From: Paractinoplanes ferrugineus | GTDB taxonomy: Bacteria > Actinomycetota > Actinomycetes > Mycobacteriales > Micromonosporaceae | Assembly (NCBI RefSeq): GCF_016862195.1 | Contig: NZ_BOMM01000047.1 | Coordinates: forward strand, 62,001 to 126,000 | Length of the DNA stretch: 64,000 bases | Direction of reading: 5' to 3' | Made by a program: the position numbers and the translations under genes | The notes under the pieces: model-generated | Databases searched by the model: none | Seen by the model: the letters and a program-made list of their open reading frames with translations, nothing else | Told to the model about the DNA's origin: nothing | Shown here: in pieces, positions 45,389 through 50,825 of the stretch | How positions within the stretch are numbered: position 1 is the stretch's first letter | Layout: each line of letters begins with the position of its first letter

Positions 45389-46111
45389 TCATGAGACGAA
45401 GTACGCGCACGACATCCGGGCGAGCTGCGGGTCGCCGGGTTCGGGGTTGCGAACGCGGTGGACGGTGGCCGGCCAGCGCCGGCCGCTGCGGTCCTCCATC
45501 TCCTGGCCGGTGTGCACGATGAGTTCGTTGCCGGCGTCATGCACCTCGGCCCAGCCGTCGGGACCCTCGATCTGCAGGCCCGGCAGCGATGCCGGGGCGA
45601 GGATCGTCAGGGCGTTCAGGTCCTTGTGCGCGGGTGACCGCGGCGTCCCCCGCTGGGCCCGTTGCCGCACCATCGCCGAGTCGATGTCGCCCTCGAACGG
45701 GGGGTAGCGCATGACGCGCAGGCACCCTCGATCGGTACGGCGCAGCAGCCTCGGGCCGCCCCGCGCCGCGATCTGCTCGCCGATCTTCCGGGCGACCGGG
45801 GCGAGCAGGGCGATCAGTGCGTCGGTCTGGTCGCACAGCGCCTGGGGCAGGCGTACGCCTCTGCGGTAGTAGTAGCTGTCCTTCATCTCGGCGGTGAATG
45901 CCGGTTGCAACGGGAGGAAGCCGATCGGCCGGTGCCGGTTGCCGGGCAGGGTTTTCCGCAGCGGGCCGGTCAACGTCCGCTCCCACGCCGCGTAGGTAAC
46001 GTGCACCAACTCGACCTGGGCCGGGGTCAGGGGCAGGCGGAGGAAGGTGCGCGATTCCAGCTCGGCGGCCGCGGTGTCGGGGACGGGCACGGGCAGCGGT
46101 TCGGTTGTCAC
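45389..46111 (-). CDS. Fe(II)/2-oxoglutarate-dependent oxygenase of RiPP-like operon
   Basis: 240 residues from GTG 46111 (GTGA overlap with upstream gene). The C-terminal half has the isopenicillin-N-synthase-type double-stranded beta-helix: iron ligands His162 and Asp164 in PAHKDLNALTIL, the segment GNELIVHTGQEMEDRSGRRWPATVHRVRNP with His218 as third ligand, and Arg232 (ARMSCAYFV) for 2-oxoglutarate. The enzyme would hydroxylate or desaturate a substrate. In this operon the substrate could be the Lys/Asp-rich protein encoded at 49921-50451. It is last of the coupled genes. Confidence 0.85.
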   Translation of the reverse strand: MTTEPLPVPVPDTAAAELESRTFLRLPLTPAQVELVHVTYAAWERTLTGPLRKTLPGNRHRPIGFLPLQPAFTAEMKDSYYYRRGVRLPQALCDQTDALIALLAPVARKIGEQIAARGGPRLLRRTDRGCLRVMRYPPFEGDIDSAMVRQRAQRGTPRSPAHKDLNALTILAPASLPGLQIEGPDGWAEVHDAGNELIVHTGQEMEDRSGRRWPATVHRVRNPEPGDPQLARMSCAYFVS

Positions 46112-46812
46112 AGCGCCGCCACCGCCCGCGGCAGGTGCCGACCGTCGATCGGCCGCGCGTAGAGTCGCAACGCCAGCCCGTGCTCGCTCAGGGTGAATCC
46201 GGCGTAACCGGCCGGCAGGCGCAGGCGGCGGAATCGGGTCAACAGCGGGTCGGCGGCCCCGTCGAGCACCTCGGCCGCGCGCCGGGCGCCGGGCGCGGCG
46301 TGTTGAAGCTTGAGTCGCGGGCTGTCACCGGCGACCGCGAGCGAGAGCAGTCGGGGCCACCCGGCCGTCGCCGAGCGCCGGACGAGGTCGGGGATCGCGT
46401 CGACCACGCCGGGGGCGAGCCCGCCCGATCGAGCCGCCGCCATGGCGACGTCGACGAGCCGGGTGCCGCGCAGGGCAGCGACGTCGAAGTAGACCGATCG
46501 CTCGTCGGGACGTCCGGACCGCCAGCGCTCGGCGACCATCGTGGCGGGCACGGTGCCCGCGAGTCCGTGGTGCTCGTCCCGGCGCGCGGACCGGTACCAG
46601 GTGACGGCGCGCAGCTGATGTTGCGAGAGGTCACAGCGCACGAATCGAGGGCTCGGTCCGGACCACGGCCGGTTCCAGTGCCCGCCGATCCAGTGCACGA
46701 GAGGGGCTTGGTTTCCCGCTACCAGCACGCCCACGGCGCCGGTGTCCGAGGCGATACTGAGTTCCGCGGCGGCGACGCCGGCGAGCCGGTTCAGGATCTC
46801 GGTGTGGTTCAC
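46108..46812 (-). CDS. Unrecognised protein of RiPP-like operon
   Basis: 234 residues from GTG 46812, overlapping neighbours by 4 bp on both sides. No family is recognised. It begins HTEILNRLAGVAAAELSIASDTGAVGVLV, contains a His/Trp-rich stretch (LVHWIGGHWNRPW), a middle part with YFDVAALRGTRLVDVAMAAARSGG, SPRLKLQHAAPGARR, and a C-terminal GFTLSEHGLALRLYARPIDGRHLP. The SPRLKL and LRLYARP segments faintly recall aromatic prenyltransferase strands, but similarity is too weak for a call. The complete translational coupling implies a role in the same pathway. Confidence 0.7.
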   Translation of the reverse strand: MNHTEILNRLAGVAAAELSIASDTGAVGVLVAGNQAPLVHWIGGHWNRPWSGPSPRFVRCDLSQHQLRAVTWYRSARRDEHHGLAGTVPATMVAERWRSGRPDERSVYFDVAALRGTRLVDVAMAAARSGGLAPGVVDAIPDLVRRSATAGWPRLLSLAVAGDSPRLKLQHAAPGARRAAEVLDGAADPLLTRFRRLRLPAGYAGFTLSEHGLALRLYARPIDGRHLPRAVAAL

Positions 46813-47528
46813 CAGTACAACACCCACCCCGCGGTGTCGCGGATTCCGTGCCCCTGCAACGTGATCCGCTGGTCGCCGGGCCACAGCCGCGGGACCGCTC
46901 CGATGCGGTGCAGGACCGACCGCATCTGCACCGCCATGACACCGACCTGGTAGGGATGGCGGGTCGGCGGCTTCGTCTCGGCGATCCGGCGGATGTCGCC
47001 GGCGCGGCCCATCCGGCGCCGGCGCCGGCTCTCCTCGACGGTGAAGTTCCAGTACTCCAGGGCCGCGCCCTCGTGCGGCAGCCGGATCGCCAGGGTGAAG
47101 GAGATGTGCTGCCTCGGGTGGACGATCTCCGCCGCCCACGGCAGCGCCTCGTACTGCAGGTCGAAGTGCTCGTTGGGCACTCCCCCGGTCGAGATGCCGA
47201 GCTCCTCGAAGATGTGGAAGCCGGGCAGGGCCGCCCTGCCGCTGTCGAACCGGGTGGGCGCACCGAGATGCTCGGCCAGCGCGGCGCCAACCGCGGTGTG
47301 CACGTCCCCGAAGTGCTCGGTGAGCAGCGCGTTCTGCGACTCGAACCGCTCGTGGTAAGCACGGACCGGATCGGCCGAGTGAGCGAGGTCGAGGTAGGTC
47401 GCCACGCCCAGGGTCCAGAAATGCTCGGCCCGCTCGATCCACCGCGGGCGCAGTGCCCGGACCCGGTCGGCCACGTCGGCCGCCCCGGCGGGGTCGAGCA
47501 CCACGAGGTCGGCCATGACCGGGTTCAC
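46809..47528 (-). CDS. Fe(II)/2OG oxygenase-like protein, paralogue B
   Basis: 239 residues from GTG 47528 (GTGA overlap). It is a clear paralogue of the gene encoded just upstream: both share RxxALRPRWxERxxxFxxLG near residue 30, ALPGFHxF, H-x-D-L-Q and a C terminus R-I-T-L-Q-G-H ending in LYW. The likely iron ligands are His121 and Asp123 (EHFDLQYEALPW) and His207 (VLHRIG), with Arg221 in DQRITLQGH as the 2-oxoglutarate contact, 14 residues after the His. These spacings suit a 2OG oxygenase but no named family is recognised. Probably a tailoring enzyme. Confidence 0.72.
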   Translation of the reverse strand: MNPVMADLVVLDPAGAADVADRVRALRPRWIERAEHFWTLGVATYLDLAHSADPVRAYHERFESQNALLTEHFGDVHTAVGAALAEHLGAPTRFDSGRAALPGFHIFEELGISTGGVPNEHFDLQYEALPWAAEIVHPRQHISFTLAIRLPHEGAALEYWNFTVEESRRRRRMGRAGDIRRIAETKPPTRHPYQVGVMAVQMRSVLHRIGAVPRLWPGDQRITLQGHGIRDTAGWVLYW

Positions 47529-48193
47529 CAGTAGAGAAGCCATCGGTTCTCCTCGATCGCGAGCGCGTGACCCTGCAGAGTGATCCGCCGGCCGGCGTTT
47601 CCACCCGGGTAACAGGCCCGGCGGTGCAGGGTCCGACCGGTGTGCACGAACAGCTCGCCCAGCCGGTAGTCCTCGCGCTCGATGTACGGGCGCCCCGAGC
47701 CACCGCGGGAGAACTCGATCCCGCCCCCGGCCGGCGGCAGCTCGACGGGCAGGGTGAAGGTCCGGGTCGGCGTGTCCAGCCGGGTGGCCGGCCCCAGGTG
47801 CCGGAACTGCAGATCGAGGTGCAGGCGGTCACGGGCGGCGCCGGTCAGCGACCGGGCCAGGAACAGGTGGAAACCAGGCAGAGCCGTCGCCCCGGAAGCC
47901 AGCGTGCACGGCGCGTTCAGCTCGTCCTCCAGGGCCAGGCGGCAGCTCTCCAGCAGGTCCGGGAACTCCCCCGCGAGCAGCTCGTTGTCGGCGGCCGCGC
48001 GGTGGGCGTACCCGTCGAGGTTCCGCTGCGGGCCCACGTCGAGGTAGACCGAGGCACCCAGGCTGTAGAAGTCCCGGCCGCGCTCGCGCCAGCGAGGGCG
48101 CAGTGCGTCGATTCGTCCCACGACGTCGGCGCAGGCCCGCGAGGTCAACAGAGTGCGGCGTACGACCGGGGTGTCGTCCACGACGGCGCTCAT
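47525..48193 (-). CDS. Fe(II)/2OG oxygenase-like protein, paralogue A
   Basis: 222 residues from ATG 48193 (ATGA overlap with the ATP-grasp gene). Candidate iron ligands are His125 and Asp127 (RLHLDLQFRHLG) and His190 (VHTGRTLHRR), followed 13 residues later by Arg203 in RRITLQGH. FVHTGRTLH resembles IVHTGQEM plus the distal His of the third oxygenase of this operon, supporting a common fold. Ends WLLYW, as the paralogue ends WVLYW. The tandem pair probably arose by duplication and may act on different residues or as a heteromer. Confidence 0.72.
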   Translation of the reverse strand: MSAVVDDTPVVRRTLLTSRACADVVGRIDALRPRWRERGRDFYSLGASVYLDVGPQRNLDGYAHRAAADNELLAGEFPDLLESCRLALEDELNAPCTLASGATALPGFHLFLARSLTGAARDRLHLDLQFRHLGPATRLDTPTRTFTLPVELPPAGGGIEFSRGGSGRPYIEREDYRLGELFVHTGRTLHRRACYPGGNAGRRITLQGHALAIEENRWLLYW

Positions 48194-49080
48194 GGCGCCA
48201 GCACCCGGCAGAGCGCTGCGGAGATGGCCCCGTCACAGCGGCGGTCGTACCAGTCGTAACCGGGCATCGGATTCGCCTCCAGGCACCACCAGCGGTCCTG
48301 TGCGTCGACGCGGAAGTCCCATCCGGTGAACGCCAGGCCCATCGTCTCGGCCGCCGACCGCATCCGTACGACCAGTTCGTCGGGGACCTCGACAGGTCGG
48401 TGAGTGATGTCGGCCCCGCGGGTCCGGTAGTCCACCACCGCGCCGTCGATCCGCTCGGCGAAGGCTTCCCCACCCACAAGATGCACGCGTACGTCGAAAC
48501 CCTCGATCCGGCGTTGCAGGTGCACCGGCCCCTGGCTCGCGTCGAAGGAAGCGAAGCGGCCGGCGTCGACGAGTTGCGCCGCCCCCCGTACCCCGGTGAT
48601 CGTCTTGACGATCACCGGTCCGTGCCGGTCGAGGAAGTCGAGGATGCGTTCGCGGTCGGACGTCGTCCGGCTGGGCGGGACCAGGAAACCCTGGCGGGCC
48701 AGCCACCATTCGTGCAACGGTTTGGAGCCGTTGTGCGCCTGCCCGCTGGGCCGGTTCACCACCGTGCCGCGGGCCGCGTCGAGGAAGGCCGTGAGGCCCA
48801 TGACGAGGCGCGTCCAGGCCGGCCCCTCGTCCGGGTCGAGCACTGGCGAGAGGTCGACCACGCGTGCGTAGTAGCTCCCGTCGCCGGGCAGGTGATGCTC
48901 GACTCCCGCCCTGCTGCGCAGGTGGGCGACCCCGTTCCACCCGTCGAGCTCGAAGTGCCACGGATGGCGCACGACGGCGCGGAGGTTGACGAACTCGACG
49001 CGGTGACCCGCGGCGTGGGCGCGTTGGGCGAAGTGGACCGTGGTGGTGTCGGTGTCCGTGCCGATCACGTGAATGGTCAC
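48190..49080 (-). CDS. ATP-grasp ligase of RiPP-like operon
   Basis: 296 residues from GTG 49080 (GTGA overlap). A RimK/graspetide-type ATP-grasp fold: N-terminal IHVIGTDTDTTTVHFAQRA, central NRPSGQAHNGSKPLHEWWLARQGFLVPPSRTT, nucleotide-binding Lys in VIVKTITGVRGA, PVHLQRRIEGFDVRVHLVGGEAFAERI, and the metal-binding end FTGWDFRVDAQDRWWCLEANPMPGYDWYD with Asp, Glu and Asn. Such ligases activate carboxylates by phosphorylation and join them to amines or hydroxyls; in graspetides they cross-link Asp/Glu with Lys/Ser/Thr of a precursor. The Lys/Asp-rich protein encoded upstream is an obvious candidate substrate. Confidence 0.88.
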   Translation of the reverse strand: MTIHVIGTDTDTTTVHFAQRAHAAGHRVEFVNLRAVVRHPWHFELDGWNGVAHLRSRAGVEHHLPGDGSYYARVVDLSPVLDPDEGPAWTRLVMGLTAFLDAARGTVVNRPSGQAHNGSKPLHEWWLARQGFLVPPSRTTSDRERILDFLDRHGPVIVKTITGVRGAAQLVDAGRFASFDASQGPVHLQRRIEGFDVRVHLVGGEAFAERIDGAVVDYRTRGADITHRPVEVPDELVVRMRSAAETMGLAFTGWDFRVDAQDRWWCLEANPMPGYDWYDRRCDGAISAALCRVLAP

Positions 49081-49901
49081 GGCAGCAACAGCTCCAGCAG
49101 CGTCGTGAAGACCTCGCGGAGGACGGGGCGGCACTCCTCGAGACCGGGGAACGGGTTGACCCGGGCCAGCACGGCCGGTCCGTCTCCGGCCGGGATCGCC
49201 CACGAGACGGTGGCGAACTGCAGTCCCAGCGCGGCCACGGCGGCCACGCTCTGCGCCTCGACGTCCCGTGGCCCGATGTCGGCCGTTGTCACGCGGAACC
49301 CGGCGGAGCCCACGACGACGACCTGTTCCCAGCCCTGGGTAGCGGTCCGCTCGCGGGACCGGCCGAACGTGATCCCGGCCGGGCTGTCGGAGACCGCGAA
49401 CGAGCCGAGGTCTTGATGGAACCACCGATCGGGGTCGGGCGGGGGCCGGTCGTTCCAGAAATTCTCGCGCAGAACCGGGACCCGACCGGCCCGGCGTTCG
49501 GTCACGACGGCCGACAACACGCTCCGCGAGACGCCGCCCCACTCGTTCGGCCGGTTGACCACGGGCCGCGGCGACAGCGCTGCCGCGGACCAGAACGTGG
49601 AGTAACACTCGGTCCAGGCGAAGCGCTCGTCTTCGGTGGCGTCCGGCAGCGGGGGCCGAGCCGGCCGGACGAGGACGGACGGCGCCGGGTCGACGGTGAC
49701 CTCGCAGCCGGCGATGTCGAGCGTCGTCCGGCGGGCCGCCACCGGCAGCCGGCACCGGTCGACCGCAACGCCGCGGGCGGTGGCGAACGAGGAGAACGCA
49801 TGGCCGAACGGGTCGTCGGCCTCGTCCACGATCAGCAGGTCGATCGGGCGGTCCGCGCGGCCCGGCTCGGCCGACGGGCGGGCAGCTGTCGTCTCGGGCA
49901 C
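49077..49901 (-). CDS. Second ATP-grasp-like protein, possibly degenerate
   Basis: 274 residues from GTG 49901, preceded by a strong GGAGG at 49906-49910. Layout parallels the ATP-grasp gene downstream: N-terminal LLIVDEADDPFGHAFSSFATARGVAVDRCRL, PRPVVNRPNEWGGVSRSVLSAVV, and C-terminal AAVAALGLQFATVSWAIPAGDGPAVLARVNPFPGLEECRPV. The middle is shorter, a clear ATP-binding Lys motif is not seen, and only the NPFP part of the metal site is retained, so it may be a non-catalytic partner or substrate-binding subunit. It initiates the coupled run of enzymes. Confidence 0.7.
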   Translation of the reverse strand: MPETTAARPSAEPGRADRPIDLLIVDEADDPFGHAFSSFATARGVAVDRCRLPVAARRTTLDIAGCEVTVDPAPSVLVRPARPPLPDATEDERFAWTECYSTFWSAAALSPRPVVNRPNEWGGVSRSVLSAVVTERRAGRVPVLRENFWNDRPPPDPDRWFHQDLGSFAVSDSPAGITFGRSRERTATQGWEQVVVVGSAGFRVTTADIGPRDVEAQSVAAVAALGLQFATVSWAIPAGDGPAVLARVNPFPGLEECRPVLREVFTTLLELLLP

Positions 49902-49920
49902 GGAACCTCCTGCGGCGGGT

Positions 49921-50451
49921 TCAGATGATCGGTTGGCTCAGCAACGCCGTCAGCCGGGCCTCATGGAGGTCCTGGATCTGCTCGGTGATGTCCACCGGGA
50001 TCGTCACGAAGTCGAGGTCGTGGATGATCAGCTCGTTCTCCGCGGCGAGGAGTTTGTCGCCGTCGATCCCTTCTTTCGAGCCGTCCTTGCTGCCGTCCTT
50101 GGAATGACCCTTGTCCGACGTGTCCTTGCCTTTGTCGGAGGTTTCCTTACCGCCTTTGTCGGAGCTTTCCTTACCGCCTTTGTCGCCGCCGTCCTTCCCG
50201 CCGTCCTTGTCCTTGATCTTGTCGTTGCTTCCGCCGTCCTTCGCGCCGTCCTTCTTGTCCCAGAAGCCGGCCTCGCCGGCGTCCTTCGCGCCGTCCTTGC
50301 CGTCTTTCTTGGTCGACCCGAGGTCCAATCCGTTCGCGATGAGATCATCGACGACCACGGCGATGCGGTCGCTGTTCTCCCGGGCGAGCCGGCCCAGCAC
50401 GTCGACGCGCTCGGCCGCGCTGATGAACGGGCGTACGTCCTCCGTGCTCAC
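49921..50451 (-). CDS. Lys/Asp/Gly-repeat protein, candidate RiPP precursor
   Basis: 176 residues from GTG 50451, whose start overlaps the stop of the pentapeptide-repeat gene (GTGA). Residues 1-45 form a helical, leader-like segment (EDVRPFISAAERVDVLGRLA, then IAVVVDDLIANGLDLG). Residues 46-132 are a repeat core made almost only of Lys, Asp, Gly, Ser, Thr and Glu, with units such as KDG, GGKESSDK, GGKETSDK and SKDG. Residues 133-176 are again normal protein (LLAAENELIIHDLDFVTIPVDITEQIQDLHEARLTALL split between short blocks). There is no signal peptide and no Cys. Equal supply of Lys amines, Ser/Thr hydroxyls and Asp/Glu carboxylates, next to ATP-grasp genes, suggests a multiply cross-linked product. 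It could instead be a structural low-complexity protein. Confidence 0.8.
   Translation of the reverse strand: MSTEDVRPFISAAERVDVLGRLARENSDRIAVVVDDLIANGLDLGSTKKDGKDGAKDAGEAGFWDKKDGAKDGGSNDKIKDKDGGKDGGDKGGKESSDKGGKETSDKGKDTSDKGHSKDGSKDGSKEGIDGDKLLAAENELIIHDLDFVTIPVDITEQIQDLHEARLTALLSQPII
50131..50178 (-). repeat. 24-bp tandem repeat in the Lys/Asp-rich core
   Basis: Two nearly identical 24-bp units (50131-50154 and 50155-50178, one base different) continue into partial copies, coding for GGKE(S/T)SDK. The repeat has clearly expanded by duplication within the reading frame. Confidence 0.85.
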
Positions 50452-50825
50452 GGCTGGAACCGCCCTTCCTCGCCGAGCAGCAACCTCAGCAGGTTGCCGA
50501 CGTTGACGCCGTTGACCACCAGATGGTCCACGTCGCAGTTGATCAGCTCCACGCCCCGCATGCTGCAACCGGTGAAGGTGGCGCCGTCGAAGTCCCCCTC
50601 GTCGAACGCCGCCCCCTCGAAGCTGGACGCGTGGATCCGCGTGTTGAACGCCTCGATCTGCGTCATCACCGAATGCGAGAAGTCAACGTTGACGAACGTC
50701 GAACTGGCCGCGTTACCATTCGCCAGCAACATATTCGGGCGCAGAACGCGATCCTCGCCCTCGTTCTCTTGGACAACGGCGAACGTCCTCGGAGGATCCG
50801 GCTCACTGCGCGATGGTTCCGGCAT
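50448..50825 (-). CDS. Pentapeptide-repeat protein, first gene of RiPP-like operon
   Basis: 125 residues from ATG 50825 with GAGG at about 50831-50834 (GTG 50852 is a weaker alternative). The body is made of pentapeptide repeats with central Phe/Leu/Met/Val (STFVN VDFSH SVMTQ, SSFEG AAFDE GDFDG ATFTG CSMRG VELIN), predicted to form a short right-handed beta-helix, ending VNGVNVGNLLRLLLGEEGRF. Function is unknown: it might scaffold the repeat protein, provide immunity, or be a second substrate. Coupled by 4 bp to the Lys/Asp-rich gene. Confidence 0.82.
   Translation of the reverse strand: MPEPSRSEPDPPRTFAVVQENEGEDRVLRPNMLLANGNAASSTFVNVDFSHSVMTQIEAFNTRIHASSFEGAAFDEGDFDGATFTGCSMRGVELINCDVDHLVVNGVNVGNLLRLLLGEEGRFQP

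Follow-up and report, generated by a model that had tools for sequence, protein, structure and literature searches.

Eight minus-strand genes at positions 45389-50825 of a 64,000-nucleotide stretch of the Paractinoplanes ferrugineus genome (the window) probably form a graspetide-type operon, in which an ATP-grasp ligase (D) would cross-link the core of a Lys/Asp-rich precursor-like protein (B), with a degenerate ligase copy (C) as its partner and two Fe(II)/2-oxoglutarate (2OG) oxygenase homologues (E and F) oxidising the product. Side-chain cross-linking is the best reading because the clade of the ligase, the leader of the precursor, and a nucleophile and an acid that are conserved and exchanged together between loci all point to it. 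The genes are lettered A to H in their order on the minus strand, to which all window coordinates below refer. Recounted from the sequence, each open reading frame (ORF) has a start codon and a single stop, the latter included in the coordinates. Four-base overlaps join A/B, C/D, D/E, F/G and G/H, E and F overlap by 19 bases, and a 19-base gap with an AGGAGG site separates B from C. The eight coupled genes described in the initial annotation were thereby confirmed, and their order recurs in a Streptomyces locus. The host genome is 9.4 Mb in size.

The ligase and its degenerate copy

By its sequence, D (48190..49080, 296 residues) belongs to the graspetide-synthetase clade of ATP-grasp ligases and is intact, its catalytic residues having been kept. 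A profile of 11 D sequences, compared with the PDB, has as its six best matches PsnB (7drm, E=2e-32), PruB (9bou, which we take to be a graspetide-type macrocyclase), CdnC, MdnC (5ig9), MdnB (5ig8) and AMdnB, the last of the six macrocyclases standing at E=7e-14 and RimK coming next at E=1.5e-9. Invariant in the 11 sequences are K120, K159, D196-x-R198, D217-Y-R219, D255 and E268-x-N270. The D-Y-R motif aligns with D-F-R of PsnB, and DFR is described as critical for graspetide synthetases (PMC13097080; this paper and PMC8939145 are cited throughout for the passages compared). D-like proteins also occur in 42 records of a plasmid collection, with a tgmB annotation at the match in 12 of the 20 listed, while the D profile matched seven stretches in viral contigs, none of which was confirmed.

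The same ranking bears on another reading, in which D would resemble RimK/PGM1 ligases and attach an amino acid or another small molecule, made by E-H or by other enzymes, to the side chains of the core or to the end of B, leaving no cross-links. RimK-family ligases and LysX are indeed the next-best matches of both D and C, many genes of the operon are oxidative, and a repeated Asp/Lys polymer would suit repeated tagging. However, graspetide macrocyclases outrank RimK for C as well as for D, a graspetide-type leader is present, and nucleophile and acid are conserved and change together, and we regard tagging of this kind as unlikely.

For the cross-linking operon, the question is then what the second ATP-grasp protein does. 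C (49077..49901, 274 residues) has no match in Pfam or NCBIfam, and its profile aligns with that of D over 253 columns at E=4e-4 and 21% identity, with an HH probability of only 35%. Its AlphaFold2 model, built from seven sequences, has a predicted local distance difference test score (pLDDT) of 80 in the best of five models and 61 in the weakest, and the best Foldseek match of the model is PsnB (E=5e-11), the first 17 rows being PsnB, PruB and AMdnB. At the columns of D's catalytic residues, K120 is replaced by Ala, H123 by Thr and R198 by Val in all 11 C proteins, K159 and D217 have no counterpart, and D255 gives way to Ser, Thr, Val or Ile; E268 is kept in three of the proteins and N270 in two, never both in one protein. 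By alignment and predicted model, C shares the fold of D and is a catalytically dead copy of it, not a second ligase. The proposed "ATP-grasp pair" accordingly stands as far as the fold of both proteins and the integrity of D are concerned, but not for the activity of C, and two active ATP-grasps in the microviridin style are ruled out by the missing catalytic residues.

The loss of these residues is what casts C as a dead partner, which may hold the precursor or activate D. C adjoins D in all 15 loci collected (see below). In the plasmid collection one C sequence found no match at E<=1e-3, though the collection holds the 42 records with D-like proteins. As far as our literature searches went, a dead copy that retains a C-terminal region beside a live ligase is new. 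A second, decayed C stretch with three in-frame TGA codons was seen in genome G402 (L068:6999-7220), the genome that also carries locus L015.

The precursor-like protein

B (49921..50451, GTG start, 176 residues) matches no Pfam or NCBIfam family above cut-off, and its leader and tail align with those of 11 other precursors. These 12 Lys-core precursors, of 160-221 residues, are built alike, with a shared motif at the N-terminus, a core of Lys and acids, and a tail at the C-terminus. The motif in B is PFISA (residues 8-12, 50416..50430), and across the set it reads PF[ILM]xA in 11 of 12 and PF[ILM] in all 12. It corresponds to the graspetide leader motif Phhx(1,2)h (PMC8939145), which is matched by 11 of the 12, the exception being L021 with PFLTT; among the three more distant loci (L018, L066 and L067) the leader Pro is kept only in L018. 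The tail of B, RLTALLSQPII (residues 166-176, 49924..49956), aligns with the conserved tails of other precursors, e.g. LRASRVNRYLRDAGIVI. A B-like protein with a leader and a core of Lys/Ser/Thr and Asp/Glu stands beside the ligase in 15/15 loci, a linkage that is partly a product of the search, as the loci were found through C or D. In two of the 15 (L018 and L066) the leader-like part is on a separate small ORF, PFIPAEARP in the former (L018:9250-9760) and LFIPSASRPDV in the latter (L066:3340-3960), both on the minus strand between the repeat ORF and C; this is a possible graspetide leader acting in trans.

The core of B (residues 47-131, 50059..50313) holds 21 Lys, 18 Asp and 4 Glu, and an acid follows Lys at +1 in a fraction of 0.67 (z +4.6 against shuffles). 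The pattern is far more regular in the relatives, in eleven of which 12-24 consecutive K[D/E]x triplets were counted. In the 11 Lys-core precursors other than B, [KST][DE]x runs extend to 13-25 (15 in L019, and 25 triplets in the precursor of the Microtetraspora locus L020), against a largest run of 5 in 2000 shuffles of each precursor. KxxxD/E sites number 12-24 per relative and take in almost all Lys of the regular arrays, where strict triplets also fix +1 and -2. Among 220 called ORFs of 14 loci, runs of at least 6 occur in seven, all of them precursors, the remaining ORFs having at most 4; the caller missed the L018 repeat ORF and the precursors of L017, L020 and L022, and neither L015 nor L066 belonged to this set. 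The third triplet position varies among 5 to 9 residue types within the runs of the Lys-core precursors outside the window, and is often aromatic in those loci that start with an LLM oxidoreductase gene (LLM-type loci). L018 and L066 have, instead of Lys/acid triplets, [S/T]Ex runs of 11 and 12, with one Lys in each. Ser in these repeats is coded by both AGY and TCN, with synonymous codons mixed, which indicates that the nucleophile-acid pattern is kept, rather than a DNA repeat. The exchange of K-D for S/T-E, as read from the sequences, is what would be expected if nucleophile and acid are joined.

It could also be argued that the repeat serves, without being modified, as a charged linker or scaffold, and that D acts on another target or only on the ends of B. 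Low-complexity Lys/Asp stretches drift easily, the window core is irregular, and it is leader and tail that are conserved across the family. On the other hand, K and D/E hold their places through as many as 25 triplets, the third position takes up to 9 residues and synonymous codons are mixed, and a purely charged disordered segment would need neither a strict period of three nor the S/T-E exchange. We find an unmodified linker quite improbable. Homologues of B were not found in the plasmid collection, the only place searched for repeat proteins without an ATP-grasp neighbour.

The cross-linking of B may also be pictured in a stronger form, which we put forward as a speculation and hold to be doubtful: the live and dead ligase pair would link every Lys with the acid at +4 (K[D/E]xK[D/E]) through as many as 25 triplets into a stapled rod, a continuous ladder of lactams hydroxylated by E and F, and the product would be a structural material and not a small antibiotic, whereas the Ser/Thr-Glu relatives would make an ester ladder with the leader supplied by a separate small protein.

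The oxygenases

F (46809..47543, 244 residues) and E (47525..48193, 222 residues, 32% identical to F) have no Pfam match at E<=1. In an alignment of 12 E/F-type proteins, E included, H126-x-D128, H212 and R226 (F numbering) are invariant. The E/F profile matches WelO5-type entries weakly (E=0.006 to 0.03), and one homologue matches PF22814 at E=0.005, below the cut-off. The model of F, with E and homologues as alignment rows, has a pLDDT of 89, and among the best 50 of its 267 Foldseek matches at E<=0.001 the first 17 are all of the WelO5 type (E 1e-8 to 2e-7), the WelO5 rows having an identity of about 9-13%. On this predicted structure F adopts the double-stranded beta-helix of Fe(II)/2OG enzymes and carries the HxD...H site as well as a distal Arg, and E is the same by alignment. 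A halogenase would lack the Asp of HxD. H (45389..46111, 240 residues) belongs to PF03171 (E=4e-9), has 3on7 as its best PDB sequence match (E=1.5e-17) and a 44% identical homologue in L019. All three oxygenase-like proteins anticipated from the sequence are therefore borne out, H by Pfam, F by its predicted fold and E as a row of the F alignment. No PF13640 domain was found in E, F or H; the genome's only PF13640 match is on the same contig, outside the window.

Outside the loci, F matches PHROG 24927 (E=4e-18), a family of unknown function; it had no match in the plasmid collection and none in 99 relatives, 59 of them of the same genus. E/F-type homologues, about 32% identical to F and annotated as hypothetical, were seen in the Prochlorococcus phages P-HM1, P-HM2 and MED4-213 (6 records), for instance at L069:3872-4645 (GU071101.1 146825-147598), and the P-HM1 copy lies a few genes from a gene annotated tlmH. 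A divergent F-type oxygenase, 50% identical to window F, adjoins a DUF427 gene at L043:4982-6589, next to an LLM-type cluster that has its own E/F gene.

An E/F-type oxygenase is present in 12/12 Lys-core loci and in 0/3 others, a contrast which corresponds to a single split of the tree and which suggests, from gene content, that Lys is the oxidised residue. A competing possibility, compatible with cross-linking, is that E and F act on a target other than Lys, such as the Asp beta-carbon, an aromatic residue of the third position or a free metabolite, with a hydroxy-Asp metal binder as one conceivable product. The SmaO/SmaX oxygenase pair acts on Asp of a graspetide precursor (cited in PMC13097080), the third position is frequently aromatic in LLM-type loci, and WelO5 relatives act on small molecules according to the titles of the matches. 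Yet E/F genes are restricted to loci with Lys as the main nucleophile, although this is one evolutionary split, and Asp persists in the mixed core of L067, which lacks E and F. We treat a non-Lys target as a minority possibility, though one to be kept in sight.

Distribution and architectures

The full A-H order recurs in Streptomyces sp. F001 (L019), with protein identities of 38-60%, and B-C-D occur together in 15 loci in all, which, duplicates removed, are the window, L012-L022 (11 loci), L043, L066 and L067. As for the check, named in the initial annotation, of whether the eight genes co-occur in other genomes with a conserved leader, B-C-D recur and so does the leader of the Lys-core precursors, and the complete order is seen in the window and L019. 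The C sequence was found in 8 of 394 sampled genomes of the class, its own included, and the C profile in 1 of 396 genomes of the phylum sample (its own only), in 6 of 35 genomes of the family holding Frankia sp. AiPs1 and in 3 of 295 Streptomyces genomes. A wider C profile matched 19 of 340 genomes at E<=0.01, adding two new loci (G387 and G236) and nine short matches (E 5e-4 to 0.008). A contig scan with D gave seven loci, with the duplicates L023=L015, L024=L017 and L025=L012, and the Streptomyces scan recovered L019 again.

Three architectures can be distinguished. The first, A-B-C-D-E-F-G-H, is that of the window and L019. The second, found in ten loci, is LLM oxidoreductase-B-C-D-E/F-PhyH; eight of the ten have an almost complete LLM gene, L014 and L015 have fragments of it and carry another LLM gene (35% identical) on the far side of PhyH, and PhyH itself is present in eight, not being found in L016 and L043. 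In the third, represented by L018, L066 (on a 7.5 kb contig) and L067, no E/F-type gene was found. L067 contains a compact, tightly packed A-B-C-D cassette (L067:5070-8764) between fragments that look by eye like transposases, and is a possible mobile minimal version. A gene that by eye also resembles a transposase separates the E/F oxygenase from PhyH in genome G206 (L013:5263-6465), and a pyruvate-carboxylase-like gene is a neighbour in L012 and L022 alone, two Streptomyces loci that are nearly identical.

Of the accessory genes, A (50448..50825, ATG start, 125 residues) was correctly called a pentapeptide-repeat protein (PF00805, E=1.3e-6, above cut-off), and in L019 and L067 a homologue immediately precedes B (60-66% and 26-29% identity, respectively). 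G (46108..46812, 234 residues), initially unrecognised, is still without a family in five libraries, with no match in Pfam, NCBIfam, PADLOC or PHROGs and none in the PDB below E=1; a homologue of 38-41% identity is at the same place in L019, and, apart from its own genome, two of the 394 sampled from the class gave partial matches. Frame-broken H and G remnants lie side by side in genome G345, of the family of Frankia sp. AiPs1 (L029:974-1982), with no A-F match within the fetched 12 kb, and G and H may travel as a pair. A gene for a major facilitator superfamily transporter (PF07690, 43721-45283, same strand) begins 105 bases past H and is a candidate exporter; in L019 its place is taken by a different gene. 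The gene right after the L019 operon (L019:8771-9790) reads by eye like a DNA polymerase sliding clamp, an additional copy of which may serve other antibiotic clusters for self-resistance.

Weighing the evidence

Several observations weigh against a cross-linking operon, or at least against its simplest form. D reaches only 104 bits (E=1e-29) with NCBIfam TIGR04187, the ATP-grasp ribosomal peptide maturase family, whose cut-off is 350, and the B-C/D linkage comes in part from the way in which the loci were found. The repeat claimed for the window holds as a Lys/Asp-rich composition, not as a regular array, its longest [KST][DE]x run being 2. An acid is at +4 of Lys in only 9 of 21 cases (0.43, z +2.0 against shuffles), so that +1 is better kept than +4 and the spacing of corallotide, a published graspetide discussed below, is not demanded. 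In strict triplets, +1, +4, -2 and -5 are indistinguishable, and in the mixed core of L067 the triplet run of 3 equals its shuffle maximum. The oxygenase/Lys-core split is one branch of the D tree (support 100/99, with L067 on a long branch) and not a set of independent repeats. Finally, no conserved protease or exporter gene was seen when the ORF lists were inspected by eye, not every neighbour having been searched.

The proposal of a ribosomally synthesised and post-translationally modified peptide of the graspetide kind nevertheless gains from the D profile, which finds macrocyclases first, from the graspetide-like leader of B, and from the repeat protein beside the ligase. The low count at +4 and the better-kept +1 do not allow lactams between Lys and Asp to be deduced from an exact +4 distance. 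A role in primary metabolism, named at the outset as what would speak against the proposal, is rejected, no Pfam or NCBIfam match assigning the enzymes to it, and an anti-phage system was set aside as none of the eight proteins has a PADLOC match.

In the sequence of events that we envisage, D would bind the leader of B, and ATP would activate Asp/Glu carboxylates of the core, which would be joined to Lys side chains as lactams; in the distant relatives with Ser/Thr-Glu cores the ligase would make esters. C would hold the precursor or activate D. Hydroxylation of the cross-linked units by E and F would follow, with Lys as the likeliest site, and H and perhaps G would add further changes, while A, as a pentapeptide-repeat accessory, is assigned no role. 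We infer every one of these chemical steps, their order, the Lys(i)-Asp(i+4) spacing and the part played by C as a partner.

Relation to known graspetides

The gene combination, initially described as unfamiliar, is largely so, but corallotide is a close published precedent. Made by CorA-D of Corallococcus (graspetide group 15) and reported in 2026, it acquires five KxxxD lactams and then Lys 5-hydroxylation, its ligase being activated by a partner protein (PMC13097080), so that the lactam and hydroxylation chemistry proposed here exists. Both systems have a large precursor with repeated Lys/Asp sites, a TIGR04187-type ligase, a divergent 2OG oxygenase and a partner-dependent ligase, the dependence being presumed in our case. 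They differ in the core (five KxxxD sites in CorA; up to 25 contiguous triplets in the relatives of B and an irregular array in the window), in the oxygenase (CorC is PF13640; E and F have no Pfam match and a WelO5-like fold), in the partner (the oxygenase itself in corallotide; probably a dead ligase copy here) and in gene content, with no beta-lactamase here and with the pentapeptide protein and G/H in addition.

The predicted ATP-grasp macrocyclase fold of C and D and the Phhx(1,2)h leader are shared with the microviridin and plesiocin systems (MdnB, MdnC, PsnB). Those systems have short precursors with Thr/Ser/Lys and Glu/Asp cores, and both ligases are active; we know of no 2OG oxygenases in them. 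Some microviridin loci also carry two ATP-grasp genes, and in the branch 8 graspetide loci of Makarova an ATP-grasp ligase is accompanied by a catalytically inactive ATP-grasp protein (PMC8939145), so the principle of a dead partner is not new. The branch 8 companion is truncated to two N-terminal domains, whereas C keeps its C-terminal region and has lost catalytic residues; such a repeat precursor or oxygenases were not met in the passages compared, the word "oxygenase" occurring 0 times in the main text of PMC8939145. Rosaritide MirB/MirC likewise has a ligase in need of a co-encoded partner, as we suppose for D, but MirC is SurA-like/PPIase-type, and the product has three lactones and a short core (PMC13097080). 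The WelO5-type Fe(II)/2OG enzymes (PF22814) resemble F in predicted fold and by a weak profile match, and differ in that E and F have HxD and would act on a peptide.

Graspetide groups 34 and 35 often have long repeat precursors (PMC13097080). Differing from corallotide in core, partner and oxygenase, the present family may be a new graspetide branch, and it could also be one of the 43 published groups. In the open-licence literature we found no paper on a graspetide with phytanoyl-CoA. The cores would be, to our knowledge, the most repetitive among graspetides.

If our reading is true, it would add a graspetide branch whose ligase is apparently paired to its own dead copy, together with a family of oxygenases that Pfam does not recognise and that accompanies Lys cores. 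In a row of adjacent Lys/Asp lactams, enzymes would be producing what chemists obtain by synthesis as helix staples. A technical limit may have hidden this branch, because the Lys-core precursors all exceed the 150 residues to which one published survey confined its precursors (PMC8939145). If the loci are what we propose, the swap between Lys-Asp and Ser/Thr-Glu that nature has made in homologous loci would allow one to test directly which residues the ligase connects.

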